Of a DNA stretch of 64,000 nucleotides, positions 28,348 to 35,423 are shown piece by piece. Under the pieces are notes generated by a model. That model was given only the letters and a program-made list of their open reading frames with translations, was not told the DNA's origin and did no database searches. Position numbers and translations under genes: made by a program. The DNA is from Eubacteriaceae bacterium ES3. Its GTDB lineage: Bacteria > Bacillota > Clostridia > Eubacteriales > Eubacteriaceae. The stretch is from contig CP130741.1 in the NCBI GenBank assembly GCA_030586155.1, positions 1,730,680 to 1,794,679 on the forward strand, in the 5' to 3' direction. Positions within the stretch are counted from its first letter, which is position 1. The number at the start of each line of letters is the position of its first letter.

Positions 28348-28671
28348 TTATTCTTTATAGTGTTTCGGTGCCGGCGCCTTAACCACAACGAGTTCCAGCG
28401 TCTCTTGGTGACTGTTGCCGACATTCATTTTTATATTGTAGGGGATTTCCAACAGTGACCCTTTCGGATAATCATGTGCCTCCTGCTCATCAAGCCTGAT
28501 GGTCAGATCCCCTCTGATTACATTCATATATACGTTGGAATTGGAATAATGTTCCGGCAGGCCCTCGCCTTGGCCAAAAACCATATGAATGTAATTAATA
28601 TTTTCATCCATAATCAGTTTTTCAACCTTTTTGTCATCGGTGGTACTGTACTGATGTACTTTTTCAATCAT
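28348..28671 (-). CDS. Small cupin-domain protein
   Basis: A 107-aa single-domain cupin. The first motif region is FGQGEGLPEHYSNSNVYMNVIRG, of which the core is GEGLPEHYSNSNVYM (about residues 35-49). The second region is DYPKGSLLEIPYNIKMNV (about 67-84). Compared with catalytic cupins, histidines are sparse: H40 is kept, while the second-motif His is absent, so metal catalysis is uncertain. It is divergent from the Crp/Fnr gene; in anaerobes such small cupins often accompany redox-stress operons. Function unknown. Confidence 0.7.
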   Translation of the reverse strand: MIEKVHQYSTTDDKKVEKLIMDENINYIHMVFGQGEGLPEHYSNSNVYMNVIRGDLTIRLDEQEAHDYPKGSLLEIPYNIKMNVGNSHQETLELVVVKAPAPKHYKE

Positions 28672-28809: not shown

Positions 28810-29475
28810 ATGTCAGCAAACACCCATCCCTATCAGTCTACTATTCTAGACAAGCTGCCAGCCCAGCTCATCGCCAATTGTCTTTCAAACGGCTCATTTG
28901 TGCTAAAATCTTTTCATAAAAATGAAGTTGTCCATTTTGAAGGCGAAGCCTGTGAGCAGATCGAAATCATTTTAAGTGGTGAAATCGTCATCGAACGCAT
29001 CGGCATCTCCGGCGATCTGATGACCGTCAGTTATTTTCATAAAGGCCAAATTATTGGTGCCAATCTTATTTTTTCGAGTACTGAACACTACCCCATGACC
29101 ATCACTTCCCGAAAACCAACAAAGGTGCTCAGCATTGGAAAAAGTCTTCTGCTTAAACTCTGCCAAGACTATCCCGATTTTATGATGGCTTATATCAAAA
29201 TCATTTCCGATTTATCGGTCCTCATTGGACTAAAAATGAAGAACCGGGTCAGTCGAACAATCCGCCAAAGCATTATCACTTACCTTGCCCGTCAGTCTAA
29301 GCTGCAGGACACCACCACCATCCGCTTGACCTTATCTAAAAAAGCCCTGGCGGAAATGTTTGGTGTCAGCCGCACCTCGCTTTCTCGGGAATTACAGAAA
29401 ATGCGACTCGAAGGACTCATTGATTTTGATTCAAAATCGATCACGCTGCTTGCTAAAGAGCTAATTCAGGATTAA
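28810..29475 (+). CDS. Crp/Fnr-family regulator, HcpR-like by context
   Basis: A 221-aa regulator. The N-terminal cyclic-nucleotide-binding fold spans about 15-130, a long dimer helix 130-155, and the C-terminal winged HTH has recognition helix VSRTSLSRELQKM (about 193-205). The clustered cysteines of FNR are missing, so it is not an FNR-type iron-sulfur sensor; haem or redox sensing as in HcpR proteins is possible. Adjacent hcp and the two GTTRC-N4-GYAAC palindromes upstream of hcp and of the permease pair make it the likely activator of both. It ends three bases before the convergent ferredoxin-permease gene. Confidence 0.85.
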   Translation: MSANTHPYQSTILDKLPAQLIANCLSNGSFVLKSFHKNEVVHFEGEACEQIEIILSGEIVIERIGISGDLMTVSYFHKGQIIGANLIFSSTEHYPMTITSRKPTKVLSIGKSLLLKLCQDYPDFMMAYIKIISDLSVLIGLKMKNRVSRTIRQSIITYLARQSKLQDTTTIRLTLSKKALAEMFGVSRTSLSRELQKMRLEGLIDFDSKSITLLAKELIQD

Positions 29476-29477
29476 TC

Positions 29478-30200
29478 TTACTCTTTGAGGATAATCGCTT
29501 TTGACGGACATTTTTGGGCGGTTGTCACCAGCTCTTCCCGCTTTGTAACAAGGGTTTCGACACCCTGCTTATCTGAGCAGATAACCGTCGCTTTCCCGTC
29601 TTTCATCTCAAATACATCAGGCATTGACCGCACACAAGCAGTGCAACCAATACAATAGTCCTTTTGTATTGCAATTGCCTGCTCATTAGGACTATCTTCC
29701 CCCTGAATTTTAATCCCGACGTTTTTTATCATGATACCCATCCCAAGGATAAAGATAACCGTTAAAATCCAGCGCACCAGCATAAATTCCGGGCCCAGAA
29801 ATTTAGCCTCATTTGCCAGCATGGGCACTTTAATGACTGCCCAGGCACTTAAAATGACAACCACATTGCCAACACTGGCCCCTTTCTGATGCAGGGTTTT
29901 AGCAATCGGAAAAGCCGCATAGATAGGGCCTGCCGATAGACTGCCAAAAGCCAGAGCCAGAATCATACCGGTGATACCGGACTGGTTTCCCATTCGTTTA
30001 ACAATCCACTCTTTTGGTACCAATACCTCAATTGCTACGGTGAGTAAAAAAATCACCGGCAGAATCTGAGCCATTTCAATCAAATAATAAGTGGTGTTTT
30101 CCCACGCTAATTTAGCAATATCCCTGTTAAAGACAAGCAAGAACAAATAAATACCTGCCACAATCAAAAGCAATTTGTTTTTTCTTAGAACTGAAATCAT
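29478..30200 (-). CDS. Permease half fused to a C-terminal [4Fe-4S] ferredoxin domain
   Basis: A 240-aa membrane protein with about four or five hydrophobic segments (residues 8-160) and a soluble ferredoxin tail (about 175-240). The permease part has FGSLSAGPIYAAFPIA, the glycine/proline loop of the DUF318/YraQ-like permease group. The tail has CIGCTAC near 183 and the distal CPSKAI near 231, supplying four cysteines for a single cluster. It overlaps the other half by four bases (ATGA). The pair probably forms one transporter; the ferredoxin suggests redox coupling or sensing. Substrate unknown. Confidence 0.75.
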   Translation of the reverse strand: MISVLRKNKLLLIVAGIYLFLLVFNRDIAKLAWENTTYYLIEMAQILPVIFLLTVAIEVLVPKEWIVKRMGNQSGITGMILALAFGSLSAGPIYAAFPIAKTLHQKGASVGNVVVILSAWAVIKVPMLANEAKFLGPEFMLVRWILTVIFILGMGIMIKNVGIKIQGEDSPNEQAIAIQKDYCIGCTACVRSMPDVFEMKDGKATVICSDKQGVETLVTKREELVTTAQKCPSKAIILKE

Positions 30201-30682
30201 GCTAAAATCACCCCCATCAATATCGCAATTAAAACAGCACCAATAAAGCTGAGCAGATTCCGTAAAAGAGCAAAACGGGTTCCAAATTCTTTTTTCTCCA
30301 GTGGAAAAGTCACAACGCCAACCATGGTAAGGGTTGTCAAAAAAGCGACCCCCGGTACGATACTCGCACCGGAATCAACGAGTGATCCCACCAGCGGAAA
30401 AGCGACAAATGCCGGAATTAAAGTAAGGCTTCCGACAATCGCCGCCGCCACCGTTGTTAAAAGAATATTGCCAGAACCCAATACATTTTTAATGGTATCC
30501 GGCGGAATAAGGGTTAAAATCAGACCAATCATAAAGATAATTCCCACAATATCACCCAGCATGTTTTTCATCATCCCGCGTGTTTTCTTCATGGCTTCTT
30601 TTGTTTCTGCTCTCTTGCGGACAAAAGCTAATATAAAAACGATCAGTCCGACAATCCAGAAGCCAATGGTAAAGATATCCAT
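30197..30682 (-). CDS. Permease half, partner of the ferredoxin-permease
   Basis: A 161-aa protein with four hydrophobic segments and the loop TLIPAFVAFPLVGSLVDSG, analogous to the glycine/proline loop of its partner. The frame is open to 30730, but AAAGGAGAAGAA directly precedes the ATG at 30682, and the inferred transcription start (about 30704) lies inside the longer frame. First gene of a two-gene operon divergent from hcp. Confidence 0.75.
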   Translation of the reverse strand: MDIFTIGFWIVGLIVFILAFVRKRAETKEAMKKTRGMMKNMLGDIVGIIFMIGLILTLIPPDTIKNVLGSGNILLTTVAAAIVGSLTLIPAFVAFPLVGSLVDSGASIVPGVAFLTTLTMVGVVTFPLEKKEFGTRFALLRNLLSFIGAVLIAILMGVILA

Positions 30683-30710
30683 TTCTTCTCCTTTCCGATT
30701 CTTTTTCTCA

Positions 30711-30754
30711 ATCATACCGGAAAGTTTCAAAAAAAGGTGTTACTCATGTAACAC
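30711..30754 (-). promoter_or_regulatory. Permease promoter with Crp/Fnr-type operator
   Basis: Operator GTGTTAC-TCAT-GTAACAC (30737-30754), a perfect 7-base inverted repeat. On the minus strand TATGAT (30716-30711) is a -10 element. A start seven bases on (30704) places the operator centre at -41.5, the class II activator position. Confidence 0.7.
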
Positions 30755-30816
30755 TTTATAATAATCGCTATTCTTACCATCCTAATTTTCAAATAAAAAT
30801 TAATTTTTTTATTTTT

Positions 30817-30858
30817 GTTGCAAATGCAACCGCAAAAATAATAATAAAGTTGTATTAT
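30817..30858 (+). promoter_or_regulatory. hcp promoter with Crp/Fnr-type operator
   Basis: Operator GTTGC-AAAT-GCAAC (30817-30830), a perfect palindrome of the same GTTRC-N4-GYAAC form as the permease site. TATTAT (30853-30858) as -10 gives a start at 30865 and the operator centre at -41.5. TATAAA at 30859-30864 is an alternative -10. Confidence 0.65.
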
Positions 30859-30985
30859 TATAAACAGAAACCCGATTGATTTTATTTTTCCTTACATTAA
30901 CGGTTTAATAAAAACGTTTCGGGTAAATAAACTTATGTATTCGCCTTAAATAAACCATTACAATTTAGAGAAAAGAGGTACTAGA

Positions 30986-32542
30986 ATGAAAGATATGTTT
31001 TGTTTTCAATGTGAGCAGACAGCCAAAGGAACCGGCTGTGAGGTTAAAGGGGTTTGTGGAAAGACTGCTCCTGTAGCTGGTCTTCAGGATAAATTAGTCG
31101 GAGCCTGTATTGGCCTGGCCAAAGCTGTTCAGAAAAAAGGCGCCAGCCAAGCCACTGATGCCTGCATCAAGAAAGCTTTGTTCACAACGGTTACCAACGT
31201 CAGTTTTGAGAGCGAAAGCCTTAAAATTATGGTTGACTGCGTCGATCAAATGAAAGCCGATCTGGACCCGACTGCTAAAGACTACACCATGGCGGATCTG
31301 TGGGATGACAATGAAGATATCCGTTCTTTGAAAACGCTTATTCTTTTAGGGATTAAGGGAATGGCCGCTTATGCCCACCATGCAGAAATTCTCGGTTATC
31401 GAGATCCCGAAGTCGATGCCTTCTTCTATGAAGCCCTTGCCGCTGTAGGCTCCGATCTGGGCATGGATACGCTGCTGCCACTGGTTTTAAAAACCGGCGA
31501 GATTAATCTCAAATGCATGGCTCTGCTGGATCAGGCCAATACCGAAACCTACGGAACACCGGTACCGACTGAAGTGCCTCTAACCATTGAAAAAGGACCC
31601 TTTATCATCATTACCGGTCACGATCTGCACGACCTAAAACTGCTTCTGGATCAAACCCAGGGCAAAGGCATTAATATTTATACCCACGGTGAAATGCTTC
31701 CTGCCCATGCTTATCCGGAACTTAAAAAATACAGCCAGCTAAAAGGGAACTTTGGAACCGCCTGGCAGAACCAGCAAAAGGAATTTGCCGATGTTCCCGC
31801 ACCAGTACTTTTCACGACCAACTGTATTATGCCTGTAAAAGACAGTTATTCCGATCGTATTTTTACCACTGATGTGGTTCAATACCCGGATATGATTCAC
31901 GTTGGCAAAGAAAAAGATTTCACCCCAGTCATTGAAAAAGCCCTTGAACTGGGCGGTTATCCGGAAGACCACGAAATGACGGGCATTAACGGCGGTAAAA
32001 AGGTTCTGACCGGTTTTGGACACGGAACCGTTTTAGGGGTTGCCGATAAGGTTATCGATGCGGTTAAGGATGGTGCGATTAAACACTTCTTCCTGGTTGG
32101 CGGCTGTGACGGCGCTAAAACCGGACGTAACTACTATACCGAGTTTGTTGAAAAAACGCCGGATGACACGGTCGTTTTAACCCTTGCCTGCGGAAAATTC
32201 CGTTTCAACGACCTCGATCTGGGCACCATTGGTGGCCTGCCCCGTCTGATGGATATGGGCCAGTGTAATGACGCCTATTCGGCTATCAAGGTGGCTGTCG
32301 CCCTGGCCGAAGCCTTTGACTGCGGGGTTAATGATCTGCCTCTGAGCATGGTCTTATCCTGGTACGAACAAAAAGCGGTCTGTATCCTCTTAACCCTCCT
32401 GCACTTAGGCATTAAAAATATTCTTTTAGGACCATCACTGCCGGCCTTTGTCTCACCAAATGTCTTAAATGTCCTGGTTGAAAATTATAACATTGGACCA
32501 ATCACCACTGTTGAAGCTGACATGGCAAAATGCCTGGCCTAA
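30986..32542 (+). CDS. hcp: Hybrid cluster protein (hydroxylamine reductase / NO reductase)
   Basis: Cytoplasmic iron-sulfur-oxo protein that reduces hydroxylamine in vitro and handles nitric oxide in vivo. The 518-aa length and the N-terminal Cys pattern C6-x2-C9-x8-C18-x5-C24 fit class I Hcp with one [4Fe-4S] cluster. Hybrid-cluster ligand regions include GHDLHD near 211, GGCDGAKTGR near 373 and LACGKFRF near 403. The codon choice is richer in G+C than neighbours outside the island. A matching Crp/Fnr operator sits in its promoter. No hcr reductase gene is adjacent, so electrons may come from AsrA/B-type or ferredoxin partners. Confidence 0.96.
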   Translation: MKDMFCFQCEQTAKGTGCEVKGVCGKTAPVAGLQDKLVGACIGLAKAVQKKGASQATDACIKKALFTTVTNVSFESESLKIMVDCVDQMKADLDPTAKDYTMADLWDDNEDIRSLKTLILLGIKGMAAYAHHAEILGYRDPEVDAFFYEALAAVGSDLGMDTLLPLVLKTGEINLKCMALLDQANTETYGTPVPTEVPLTIEKGPFIIITGHDLHDLKLLLDQTQGKGINIYTHGEMLPAHAYPELKKYSQLKGNFGTAWQNQQKEFADVPAPVLFTTNCIMPVKDSYSDRIFTTDVVQYPDMIHVGKEKDFTPVIEKALELGGYPEDHEMTGINGGKKVLTGFGHGTVLGVADKVIDAVKDGAIKHFFLVGGCDGAKTGRNYYTEFVEKTPDDTVVLTLACGKFRFNDLDLGTIGGLPRLMDMGQCNDAYSAIKVAVALAEAFDCGVNDLPLSMVLSWYEQKAVCILLTLLHLGIKNILLGPSLPAFVSPNVLNVLVENYNIGPITTVEADMAKCLA

Positions 32543-32650: not shown

Positions 32651-33661
32651 ATGGGTTATCAAACCAGTCTTAAAATAATGAATACTATTTTTGATTCGCT
32701 TGCAAAAGACTATACCATCTACGCACCCAAGCGCTTTAAAGGTGACGGAACTTTTGTTGATATAGACACCATCCGCTACGGCGAAATTACTGATCTTTCA
32801 GAAATAGAATTTTCTCAGAAATCGGATTATTCGTTTAAAGAAATCCTACTTCCCATCTCTGAAACGCTCTTTTATTTTACCGAAAATGAAATCAAGGAAT
32901 CTGATCCACCTAAAAAAAGCGCCCTTGTTTTTCTACGCAGCTGTGATCTTCACGGTCTCAAGCGACTGGATACAATCTACCTGAAAAACGGTCCGGTGGA
33001 TTCTTTTTACCAGCGACTGCGTGATAATGTCAAGTTTATCTTAATGGGATGTGAGACATCTTTTGAAAACTGCTTCTGTGTTTCTATGGGTACGCAAGAA
33101 TCAGTCGACTATGACGCTTATCTTAAAATTATCGATCAAACTGTTTTTGTCGACAGCCATTGGGACAGACTCAACACCGTTCTAGCTAATGAAAGTCAAA
33201 CAGAAGTAGTACCTGATTTTGTTTCTGAAAACCAGACAGTCGTTGAAATTCCCGAAGTTATTTCGCCAGCGCTTTTCGACTCCCCGCTTTGGGATGATTA
33301 CCAGAACCGCTGCATAGCCTGTGGCCGCTGCAATTTTGTTTGTCCAACCTGTACCTGTTTTACCATGCAGGATCTTTTCTACACCGATAACGGCAAAGCT
33401 GGTGAACGTCGCCGTGTTTGGGCCTCCTGTCACGTTGATGGCTATACCGACATGGCTGGTGGACACGCTTTTAGAAAAGACAAAAGCCAACGGATGCGTT
33501 TTAAGGTACTCCACAAAATTAATGATTACAAACGCCGCTTTGGGGAACATATGTGTATCGGCTGCGGCCGCTGTGACGACGTCTGTCCGGAATACATTTC
33601 TTTTTCTAACTGCATTAACAAACTTAACGCTTTAGTAAAGGAGGATCAATCACATGACTAA
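32651..33661 (+). CDS. asrA: Anaerobic sulfite reductase subunit A
   Basis: Ferredoxin-like electron-transfer subunit of the assimilatory-type, NADH-linked AsrABC sulfite reductase. 336 aa. The C-terminal half carries two [4Fe-4S] motifs, CIACGRCNFVCPTC (about residue 221) and CIGCGRCDDVCPEY (about 301). The N-terminal half contains RSCDLHGLKRLD, typical of AsrA and related hydrogenase beta-type subunits. ATG at 32651 follows AAGGAGGA; the in-frame ATG nine codons upstream overlaps that site. It overlaps asrB by eight bases. Confidence 0.93.
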   Translation: MGYQTSLKIMNTIFDSLAKDYTIYAPKRFKGDGTFVDIDTIRYGEITDLSEIEFSQKSDYSFKEILLPISETLFYFTENEIKESDPPKKSALVFLRSCDLHGLKRLDTIYLKNGPVDSFYQRLRDNVKFILMGCETSFENCFCVSMGTQESVDYDAYLKIIDQTVFVDSHWDRLNTVLANESQTEVVPDFVSENQTVVEIPEVISPALFDSPLWDDYQNRCIACGRCNFVCPTCTCFTMQDLFYTDNGKAGERRRVWASCHVDGYTDMAGGHAFRKDKSQRMRFKVLHKINDYKRRFGEHMCIGCGRCDDVCPEYISFSNCINKLNALVKEDQSHD

Positions 33662-34445
33662 TCCCTATGTTCCCTTTCTTTCTACTATCAACGAAGTCAT
33701 TAAACATACTGAAATTGAATACACGTTTCGGATGAGCTATGAAGGCAGCGTCAAACCCGGCCAGTTTTTTGAGGTATCTCTTCCCAAATTTGGCGAGGCT
33801 CCAATCTCTGTCAGTGGTATTGGCGATAAAACTATCGATTTGACCATCCGCAAAGTCGGTCGTGTTACTGATGAAATTTTTGAAAATTATGTTGGCGATA
33901 CGCTTTTTTTACGTGGACCCTATGGTAACGGCTTTGATATTGAAAATTATAAAGGCAAAGAAATTCTTCTGATTGCAGGTGGGACTGGACTTTCTCCGGT
34001 TAAAGGAATCATCGATTATTTTTCCAAAAATCCTCAGGATTGCCAAAGTTTTACACTTCTGGCCGGTTTTAAATCACCTAAAGATGTCCTATTTAAACAA
34101 GACTTTAAGAACTGGGAAAAAAATATTAATGTTGTTTTAACTGTTGATTATCCGGATGAATCCTACGACGGTCATTGCGGTCTTGTCACCCAGTTCATTC
34201 CCGAATTACCCGTAAAAAATCTTAATGAGGCCGTTGGGATTGTGGTGGGACCACCCTTTATGATGCAGTGTACCATTAATGATCTTTTATCTAAAGGATT
34301 TAAAGAAGAAAATCTTTGGCTTTCCCAGGAAAGAAAAATGTGCTGTGGTATTGGTAAGTGTGGTCATTGCAAAATTGATGATACTTATATTTGCCTCGAT
34401 GGACCGGTATTTAATTATACTAAGGGAAAATATTTGAAAGATTAG
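33654..34445 (+). CDS. asrB: Anaerobic sulfite reductase subunit B
   Basis: Flavin subunit that takes electrons from NAD(P)H, 263 aa, in the PyrK/ferredoxin-NADP reductase group. An FAD-binding barrel (GQFFEVSLPKFGEAPISVSG, about 38-57) is followed by the NAD(P)-binding part (LLIAGGTGLSPVKG near 105). The C-terminal [2Fe-2S] motif reads CCGIGKCGHCKID followed by C in ICLDGPVF. It is between asrA and asrC with tight spacing. Confidence 0.93.
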   Translation: MTNPYVPFLSTINEVIKHTEIEYTFRMSYEGSVKPGQFFEVSLPKFGEAPISVSGIGDKTIDLTIRKVGRVTDEIFENYVGDTLFLRGPYGNGFDIENYKGKEILLIAGGTGLSPVKGIIDYFSKNPQDCQSFTLLAGFKSPKDVLFKQDFKNWEKNINVVLTVDYPDESYDGHCGLVTQFIPELPVKNLNEAVGIVVGPPFMMQCTINDLLSKGFKEENLWLSQERKMCCGIGKCGHCKIDDTYICLDGPVFNYTKGKYLKD

Positions 34446-34454
34446 GAGGCTTTT

Positions 34455-35423
34455 ATGTTGGATTTAAATACTAAAAAAATCAAGAAAAATGCTTATCGGG
34501 TGACTAAAGTACGCGGCGAAACCGCTTCACGCATAAGAGTTCCCGGTGGTATGTTAACTGCGGATTTATTGCCGTTAATCCAAAATATTGCGCAGACTTA
34601 CGGTAATGGCAAACTTCACCTGACCACGCGCCAGGGTTTTGAAATCCCTGGAATTCGCTACGAAGACATTACTGCTGTCAACGAACTTCTCCAGCCAATT
34701 ATTGAAAAACTGGAAATTAATCAGGAAATCCCGGGACAGGGATATACCGCTGCCGGAACAAGAAATATCTCGGCTTGTATTGGCAGTAATGTCTGTCCCT
34801 TTGCTACCTATAATACAACTGAATTCGCCAGAAAAATGGAGAAGGAAATTTTCCCTAACGACCTGCATTTTAAAGTGGCCTTTACCGGCTGCGCCAACGA
34901 TTGTATTAAGACTCGAATGCACGATTTTGGAATTATCGGAATGACCGAACCTCAATACGAAAAGGAACGCTGTGTTAATTGTCAGGCCTGTGTTAAAGCC
35001 TGCAAGAAAAAATCGGTTGATGCCTTATCTGTTGAGAACTATCGGATTGTCCGAAATACTGAGAAGTGCGTCGGCTGTGGCGAATGTGTCATTAACTGTC
35101 CAACCAGAGCATGGACCAGAAGCCTTGAAACTTACTATCGTCTGGTCATTATGGGACGGACGGGAAAACGAAACCCTCGTCTTGCCGAAGATTTCCTAGT
35201 CTGGGCAAGCGCAGCTACGATTATTAAAGTCATTAAAAACACCTATGCCTTTGTAAATAATTATATTGACCGGGAAGCACCCGGCGGAAAAGAACACATC
35301 GGCTACATAATCGATCGAACCGGTTTTGCCGAGTTTAAAAAATGGGCACTCGATGGGGTTGAACTAGATGAGCACACCATTATTAAAAATACCGTATATT
35401 GGAACGGTATTCACTACGATTAA
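34455..35423 (+). CDS. asrC: Anaerobic sulfite reductase subunit C (sirohaem catalytic subunit)
   Basis: Catalytic subunit reducing sulfite to sulfide, 322 aa. Substrate-anion residues are in TTRQGFEIP (about 56). The sirohaem-[4Fe-4S] ligands are C-x5-C in ACIGSNVCPF (about 109) and C-x3-C in GCANDCIKT (about 145). Two ferredoxin motifs follow, CVNCQACVKACKK and CVGCGECVINCP. All ligands are present. It closes the island operon and is followed by a strong terminator. Confidence 0.95.
   Translation: MLDLNTKKIKKNAYRVTKVRGETASRIRVPGGMLTADLLPLIQNIAQTYGNGKLHLTTRQGFEIPGIRYEDITAVNELLQPIIEKLEINQEIPGQGYTAAGTRNISACIGSNVCPFATYNTTEFARKMEKEIFPNDLHFKVAFTGCANDCIKTRMHDFGIIGMTEPQYEKERCVNCQACVKACKKKSVDALSVENYRIVRNTEKCVGCGECVINCPTRAWTRSLETYYRLVIMGRTGKRNPRLAEDFLVWASAATIIKVIKNTYAFVNNYIDREAPGGKEHIGYIIDRTGFAEFKKWALDGVELDEHTIIKNTVYWNGIHYD

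Follow-up and report, generated by a model that had tools for sequence, protein, structure and literature searches.

Between the divergent genes for a half-length permease (permA) and a hybrid cluster protein (hcp) lie two palindromes of related sequence. The original prediction placed both promoters in a single HcpR regulon under the Crp/Fnr gene at 28810, and the question raised by this locus is which regulator reads which palindrome. The features are listed below in the coordinates of the window, by which we mean the whole 64-kb stretch of DNA that was analysed.

28348-28671, minus strand: small cupin (PF07883 match below its cut-off)
28810-29475, plus strand: Crp1, Crp/Fnr regulator with recognition helix RTSLSR (PF00027 and PF13545, tree, co-occurrence)
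29478-30200, minus strand: permfdx, ArsP_1-family half permease fused to a single-cluster ferredoxin domain (PF03773 and PF13459)
30197-30682, minus strand: permA, half-length ArsP_1-family permease (PF03773)
30716-30711, minus strand: -10-like hexamer TATGAT of the permease-pair promoter, predicted start 30704, position kept in relatives
30737-30754, minus strand: palindrome GTGTTACTCATGTAACAC (GTGTTAC-N4-GTAACAC), centre 30745.5, predicted Crp1 site of the permease-pair promoter
30817-30830, plus strand: palindrome GTTGCAAATGCAAC (GTTGC-N4-GCAAC), centre 30823.5, predicted Crp2 site of the hcp-asrABC promoter
30853-30858, plus strand: -10-like hexamer TATTAT of the hcp promoter, predicted start 30865
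30986-32542, plus strand: hcp, hybrid cluster protein (NF003658 and TIGR01703, above cut-off)
32651-33661, plus strand: asrA, anaerobic sulfite reductase subunit A, in a predicted operon with hcp (TIGR02910)
33654-34445, plus strand: asrB (TIGR02911)
34455-35423, plus strand: asrC, nitrite/sulfite reductase-type subunit (TIGR02912, PF01077)

Palindromes and promoters of the intergenic region

The intergenic region (30683-30985, 303 nt) extends from the ATG of permA (30682, minus strand) to the ATG of hcp (30986, plus strand). Its two palindromes share the form GTTRC-N4-GYAAC, and on both sides a gap of 22 nt separates the palindrome from the -10-like hexamer, each in the direction of its own gene. 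Taking the starts as 7 nt past the hexamers (30704 and 30865, both assumed), both palindrome centres fall at -41.5. The palindrome-to-hexamer distance fits a class II dyad and is conserved; the value of -41.5 itself depends on the assumed starts.

The form GTTRC-N4-GYAAC occurs twice in the window against a mean of 0.12 over 100 shuffles, two of which reached two occurrences. When the intergenic region was dinucleotide-shuffled 5000 times, at least two such palindromes arose in 12 shuffles, at least one palindrome with a -10 hexamer of at least 5/6 at gap 22 arose in 10, and two palindromes each with a good hexamer at gap 22 arose in none. The 14-mer alone was uninformative genome-wide, with 24 places against 18 for a reversed control pattern. 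The weight of the observation lies in the pairing of palindrome with -10 hexamer and in its conservation, not in the 14-mer by itself. The original description of two related palindromes at the distance expected of an activator position, with TATGAT and TATTAT as their hexamers, is thus upheld. The two centres are 78 bp apart, or 7.43 turns at 10.5 bp per turn, which puts the sites on different faces of the helix and does not favour joint action.

The predicted hcp leader (30865-30985) measures 121 nt, and a scan of the window at the Rfam gathering cut-offs matched only a tRNA and no known RNA in this leader. This predicted leader is long and variable in length, being longer in the 11 other genus loci that have the site (L083-L092, L096), five of which carry a CCCGTT-type palindrome near the hcp start codon. 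For the small cupin, no site of its own was recognised in the window when the sequence was read by eye; its relatives sit directly before permA in several permA loci.

Conservation of the 22-nt spacing

A GTGTTACTCATGTAACAC-type site at gap 22 recurs upstream of permA in relatives. The permA survey covered 40 of 45 fetched loci, leaving out those of lower identity (L157-L161, 38-40%), and a site at gap 22 was found before permA in 38 of the 40. In 22 loci, 22 nt separated a palindrome with at most one mismatch from a hexamer matching at 4/6 or better, and 16 further loci were positive once the operon start or an AAACA word was considered; the two misses were L175, where the contig is cut, and L181, which has no good -10. 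A Crp1-type gene was present in the same locus in 37 of the 40, which agrees with the earlier proposal that the regulator at 28810 is the natural reader of the permease-pair site. Within 300 nt before permA, L035, L036 and L039 showed no site; of the genomes concerned, G010 and G007 have the permA site further upstream than this, and G009 has the AAACA dialect.

The GTTGCAAATGCAAC-type site recurs with the same gap upstream of hcp across the genus. GTTGC-N4-GCAAC was found 169-300 nt before the ATG in 12 of 17 genus hcp loci (in L083 with one mismatch), and all 12 sites stand 22 nt before a -10-like hexamer. The remaining five loci showed no site within 300 nt. Four of them contain crp2, the gene of a second Crp/Fnr regulator described below, so that hcp there probably lies behind an Fe-S gene; the fifth, L098 (G009), lies 1.4 kb from crp2. 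Of 13 hcp loci outside the genus, L100 and L101 (GTTGT-type) and L111 (imperfect GTAAC-type) had a palindrome in the 300 nt upstream that was followed at gap 22 by a good -10; the other 10 had none.

A less circular test selected sites by six words with the -10 ignored and excluded 30 loci that had been found by the 22-nt pattern. From 158 partly overlapping upstream regions, 38 non-redundant sites were obtained. Of these, 35 had a TANNNT hexamer matching at 4/6 or more with a gap of 22, against a background of 5%; they include the GTTAC site of the window read in the wrong direction (TACCAT). No such hexamer was found for L110, for L111 or for the GTTGC site of the window, likewise read in the wrong direction. 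After 22, the gaps with the most sites were 17 (18 sites) and then 19 (15 sites), in regions that are AT-rich and with hexamers that overlap. Counted by eye, the hexamer at gap 22 in cupin-first operons is surpassed by a TATAAT at gap 20. As the genus genomes and sequences are related, these counts are not independent, and the nominal P value is given no weight. The comparison with relatives supports the prediction of Crp/Fnr-type sites with class II spacing at both promoters.

The leftward palindrome could also be read as an intrinsic terminator or attenuator, since its 7-bp stem is followed by CTTTTTTT on the minus strand. A terminator-like match lies at 30754-30737 (0.2 expected), and the RNA hairpin reaches -7.8 kcal/mol (z -2.5), with -7.7 (z -1.6) at L020 and a stronger -13.5 (z -5.3) at L021. 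This reading was rejected and is very improbable because the distance to the downstream -10 is constant at 22 nt and the stems are broken in relatives, where GTGAC/GTAAC versions in seven genus loci leave one stem position unpaired. In relatives such as L021 and L026, moreover, the genes flanking the site are divergent, and neither of them runs into it.

Two site dialects and two regulators

The host genome holds a second Crp/Fnr gene outside the window, crp2 (G000:C1:2766451-2767104), whose product is 25-26% identical to Crp1. Crp1 has the two-domain Crp/Fnr architecture (PF00027 and PF13545); Crp2 matches PF13545 above its cut-off and aligns with PDB Crp/Fnr chains over nearly its full length. 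The crp2 gene is divergent from an Fe-S protein gene followed by hcp2, and GTTGCATATGCAAC, a GTTGC site, lies between them, 22 nt from a TATGAT. PF13545 gave eight matches in the host genome, six of them over the cut-off, and the helix R-(T/S)-(S/A)-L-S-R was found only in Crp1 and Crp2 (the helices of L013 and L015 were read by eye). The other Crp/Fnr proteins of the host genome were rejected as readers of the two sites, as their helices differ. One of these loci, L015 (G000:C1:2948653-2948808), is a short open reading frame whose tail is a Crp-type helix-turn-helix and whose front part looks unrelated; it may be the scar of a fusion or a deletion.

The exact pattern of site, 22 nt and TANNNT was searched in 19 genus genomes and gave 66 matches against 19 for a control pattern. 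Each match was classified by the hcp, crp1, crp2 or permA genes within 200-600 nt. Pure GTTAC sites stood at crp1 or permA in 11 cases, at hcp or crp2 in none and at neither in three, while pure GTTGC sites stood at hcp or crp2 in 40 cases, at crp1 or permA in one and at neither in six. The 11 GTTAC cases include the site of the window read both ways, and the 40 GTTGC cases include one G010 site read both ways. The lone GTTGC site at permA is the hcp site of the window, counted because permA is its divergent neighbour. Mixed sites stood at crp1 once and at neither four times.

The distribution of the genes follows the same division. A permA of at least 50% identity was found in 12 genus genomes, all 12 of which have a Crp1-type gene; in G008 a Crp1-type gene is present but no such permA. 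Six of the 19 genomes (G005, G011, G014, G016, G017, G018) have no Crp1-type gene (best match at most 24% identity) and still carry GTTGC sites at hcp or crp2. The best Crp2 match in G004, an 87% complete genome, is a distant one at 38%, and one base of the hcp site there is mismatched. As far as the flanks reach (up to 1500 nt; in L088 about 560 nt on the upstream side), only one of the 12 genus hcp-asr loci (L082-L092, L096), that of the window, has permA beside hcp, which makes the divergent arrangement a local one.

From these sequence comparisons, we consider it highly likely that two class II promoters stand back to back in this region under separate HcpR-type Crp/Fnr regulators, one for each, and that the region is a junction of two circuits. 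The earlier view was that Crp1 reads both palindromes and that both promoters form one HcpR regulon. It is supported by the shared GTTRC-N4-GYAAC form and spacing, by Crp1 being the sole match over the PF13545 cut-off inside the window, and by mixed sites at two Crp1-type loci. Crp1, not Crp2, is also nearer to the solved HcpR-type chains (5e-20 against 6e-11 for 1o5l; 6e-20 against 2.5e-10 for 9day), which counts for the single regulon and against the two-regulator reading. Yet the dialects segregate with different regulators in the genus, genomes that lack Crp1 carry GTTGC sites, Crp2 has the same GTTGC half-site at its own Fe-S/hcp2 operon, and the adjacency of hcp and permA is confined to this locus. 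A single regulon is accordingly improbable, and the assignment of the hcp site to the regulator at 28810 is not sustained.

Partial cross-talk overlaps with the two-regulator reading: Crp2 would be the main activator of hcp, Crp1 would bind the hcp site weakly (and the reverse), and some joint control would result. The half-sites differ by one base only, and mixed GTTGC/GTTAC sites occur beside Crp1-type genes. The mixed sites at two Crp1-type loci, together with the GTTGC site of a cupin at L184 (G364), a locus whose Crp1 is of the RPSLFR type, suggest that Crp1-type proteins may tolerate a GTTGC half and that cross-regulation may occur. Set against this are the different helix faces of the two sites and the separation of the pure dialects in the genus, and we regard appreciable cross-talk as possible but less likely than separate control. 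At L184 (G364) and at G006:C31:22214-22255, where the small cupin gene does not immediately precede permA, it carries a GTTGC site or a mixed one, and it may be switched between the two regulons.

Association of asrABC with GTTGC sites

In the 12 genus hcp-asr loci, hcp is followed by asrA in 11, while L089 has asrC instead. Two of the six GTTGC sites found at neither gene class stand before asrA (L114, G016:C11:209911-209952; L123, G006:C31:1474-1515). At both loci, where no hcp stands in front, asrABC is preceded by a GTTGC site of its own and a -10 at gap 22, which suggests that asrABC belongs directly to the Crp2 regulon. A further locus, L116 (G017:C11:57239-57280), has a mixed site and a leader like that of asrA in L114 with no asr match, and looks like the remains of an operon since lost.

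In Acididesulfobacillus acetoxydans, asrABC and hcp transcripts were reported to rise on average 29- and 30-fold, respectively, under nitrate reduction (PMC10949509). According to the same source, Salmonella asrABC mutants still reduced nitrite, Salmonella also having NrfA, and AsrABC has not yet been purified and its physiological role is called enigmatic. A putative nitrite-handling role of AsrABC thus draws its support from regulation.

Recognition helices and half-site letters

Recognition helices were compared with the sites before 81 regulator genes, many of them near-copies from one genus. The search covered 280 nt upstream and required at least 4/5 arm pairs, three or more G/C among the arm bases and, at gap 22, a -10 hexamer matching at no fewer than 4/6 positions. 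Sites were found for 70 of the 81 loci. The window's own Crp1 is among the 11 without a site because crp1 is not divergent from its target. The pairs were as follows:

RTSLSR: 21 GTTAC, 2 GTTGC/GTTAC (L020 in G006, L176 in G326); 3 loci without a site
RSSLSR: 7 GTGAC/GTTAC, 1 GTTAC
RSSLGR: 1 GTTAC
RTSFSR: 1 GTGAC/GTTAC
RSALSR: 19 GTTGC; 1 locus without a site
RSAMSR: 1 GTTGC; 3 loci without a site
RSAMSS: 2 GTTGT
RSAMSN: 1 GTTGT
RSAMSA: GTTGG and GTTGG/GTTGT
RSALSA: GTTGT/GTTGG
RSAMCR: GTTGC/GTTGT
RPSLSR: GTAAC and GTAAC/GTACC; 1 locus without a site
RPSLHR: GTATC
RPSLFR: 6 AAACA/AGACA; 1 locus without a site
RPSMSR and REVLSR: 1 locus each without a site
Helix not read: 1 GTTGC

At L170, a Pro181 regulator was accompanied by a clean pair of GTAAC halves and a -10 at a gap of 22 (residue numbers follow E. 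coli CRP as in PMC1274295 and were placed by eye). Crp1-type proteins with the RPSLFR helix (L156, L182-L186) were accompanied by a third word, AAACA-N4-TGTCT, at gap 22 before a cupin/permease operon.

In the regulator tree (55 rows), the permease-linked Crp1 clade had support of 98/95, and Crp2 grouped with L044/L045 at 99/99; the two reference chains sat on long branches, and their placement is unsure. L170 (Pro181, GTAAC) grouped with a Thr181 protein (98/92), and L073 (Asn185, GTTGT) grouped with L077 (Arg185, GTTGC) (96/74). These groupings imply that matching changes of helix and site probably arose more than once.

Comparison with known HcpR systems

HcpR2 regulons were predicted in Clostridia, Thermotogales and others by Rodionov et al. 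(2005; PMC1274295), and the present regulators resemble HcpR2 in that they are Crp/Fnr proteins near hcp with 5-N4-5 palindromes. The same paper correlated helix residues 180 and 181 with motif letters, noted deviating motifs for Ser181 and Gln181 proteins, and named residue 185 as a DNA-contact residue of CRP. It also predicted a permease/ferredoxin HcpR target in C. tetani (CTC0896-0898), a gene set that resembles that of the window. The common HcpR2 motif is GTAAC-N4-GTTAC with Pro181, whereas Crp1 has Thr181 and Crp2 has Ser181; the sites here are GTTAC (Thr/Ser181) and GTTGC (Ser181, Ala182). In the available part of that paper, we found no correlation at 182 or 185, no promoter spacing, no cupin and no asrABC.

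The C. difficile HcpR gene lies beside frdX-hcp with a shared predicted site (PMC12915319), much as crp2 lies beside the Fe-S gene and hcp2. Among the genes changed in the C. difficile mutant, a putative site was described at frdX-hcp only, whereas here further hcp paralogues and asrABC have sites. The linkage of crp2 to hcp2, with a Crp/Fnr-type site between them, is that expected of an HcpR. Crp1 lacks such a linkage to hcp through its own kind of site, since it is linked to permA in relatives and the hcp site belongs to the other dialect.

The 9day chain, which we take to be P. gingivalis HcpR, a label supported by its Met68 stretch, aligns with Crp1 over 191 residues. P. gingivalis HcpR is a Crp/Fnr activator of hcp and has Met68 as its haem ligand (PMC12750200). 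Read by eye, the Met68 column held no Met in the 44 Crp1-type proteins compared, its residues being Lys, Asn, Arg, Ser, His or Thr. In the 30 Crp2-type proteins Gln or Lys predominated, and Met was not among the residues listed. A Bacteroides HcpR with an RNA partner has also been described (PMC13370916).

HcpR regulons, the helix/motif correlation at 180/181 and the C. tetani permease/ferredoxin target were thus already predicted in 2005, as far as the available text of PMC1274295 goes. Our literature search returned nothing on HcpR in Acetobacterium and no combination of an ArsP/DUF318/UPF0718 permease, a ferredoxin and a Crp/Fnr regulator. In the literature searched, to the extent that its text was available, we did not find a co-resident two-dialect system, the 182/185 correspondence or the asrABC sites.

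Proposed model and implications

Under the two-regulator reading, Crp1 would bind GTTAC-N4-GTAAC at -41.5 and activate permA-permfdx leftward, while Crp2 would bind GTTGC-N4-GCAAC at -41.5 and activate hcp-asrABC rightward, and likewise its own divergent Fe-S/hcp2 operon. Activation, rather than repression, is suggested by the class II position. The recognition helices would keep the two proteins apart, RTSLSR and RSALSR corresponding to A and G, respectively, at the fourth half-site base. Comparison across genomes supports the sites, the spacing, the segregation of the dialects and the covariation of helix and site. The signal is probably nitrosative or nitrite, by analogy with HcpR and Hcp elsewhere (P. 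gingivalis, PMC12750200; C. difficile, PMC12915319, in the parts available).

A broader helix code in HcpR-type regulators is moderately likely. Residue 181 would specify the third half-site base (Pro: A; Thr/Ser: T) and residue 182 the fourth (Ser: A; Ala: G). The fifth base would be set by residue 185, with Arg for C, Ser or Asn for T and Ala for G or a mixed base, while the combination of Pro181 and Phe184 would give a different word, AAACA/AGACA. One base per half-site would then insulate two co-resident regulons whose promoters lie 78 bp apart in the host genome, and asrABC, within the Crp2 regulon, would probably encode a nitrite-handling enzyme. Rows that fit the code poorly are RSAMCR with GTTGC/GTTGT, RSSLSR with GTGAC halves and the two mixed RTSLSR rows.

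The analysis corrects which regulator most likely controls hcp at this locus, and it links AsrABC to an Hcp-type regulon in the genus. The natural pairs of helix and site, in which small changes of the helix go with matching changes of the site, would furthermore make Crp/Fnr specificity and the insulation of paralogues directly testable.
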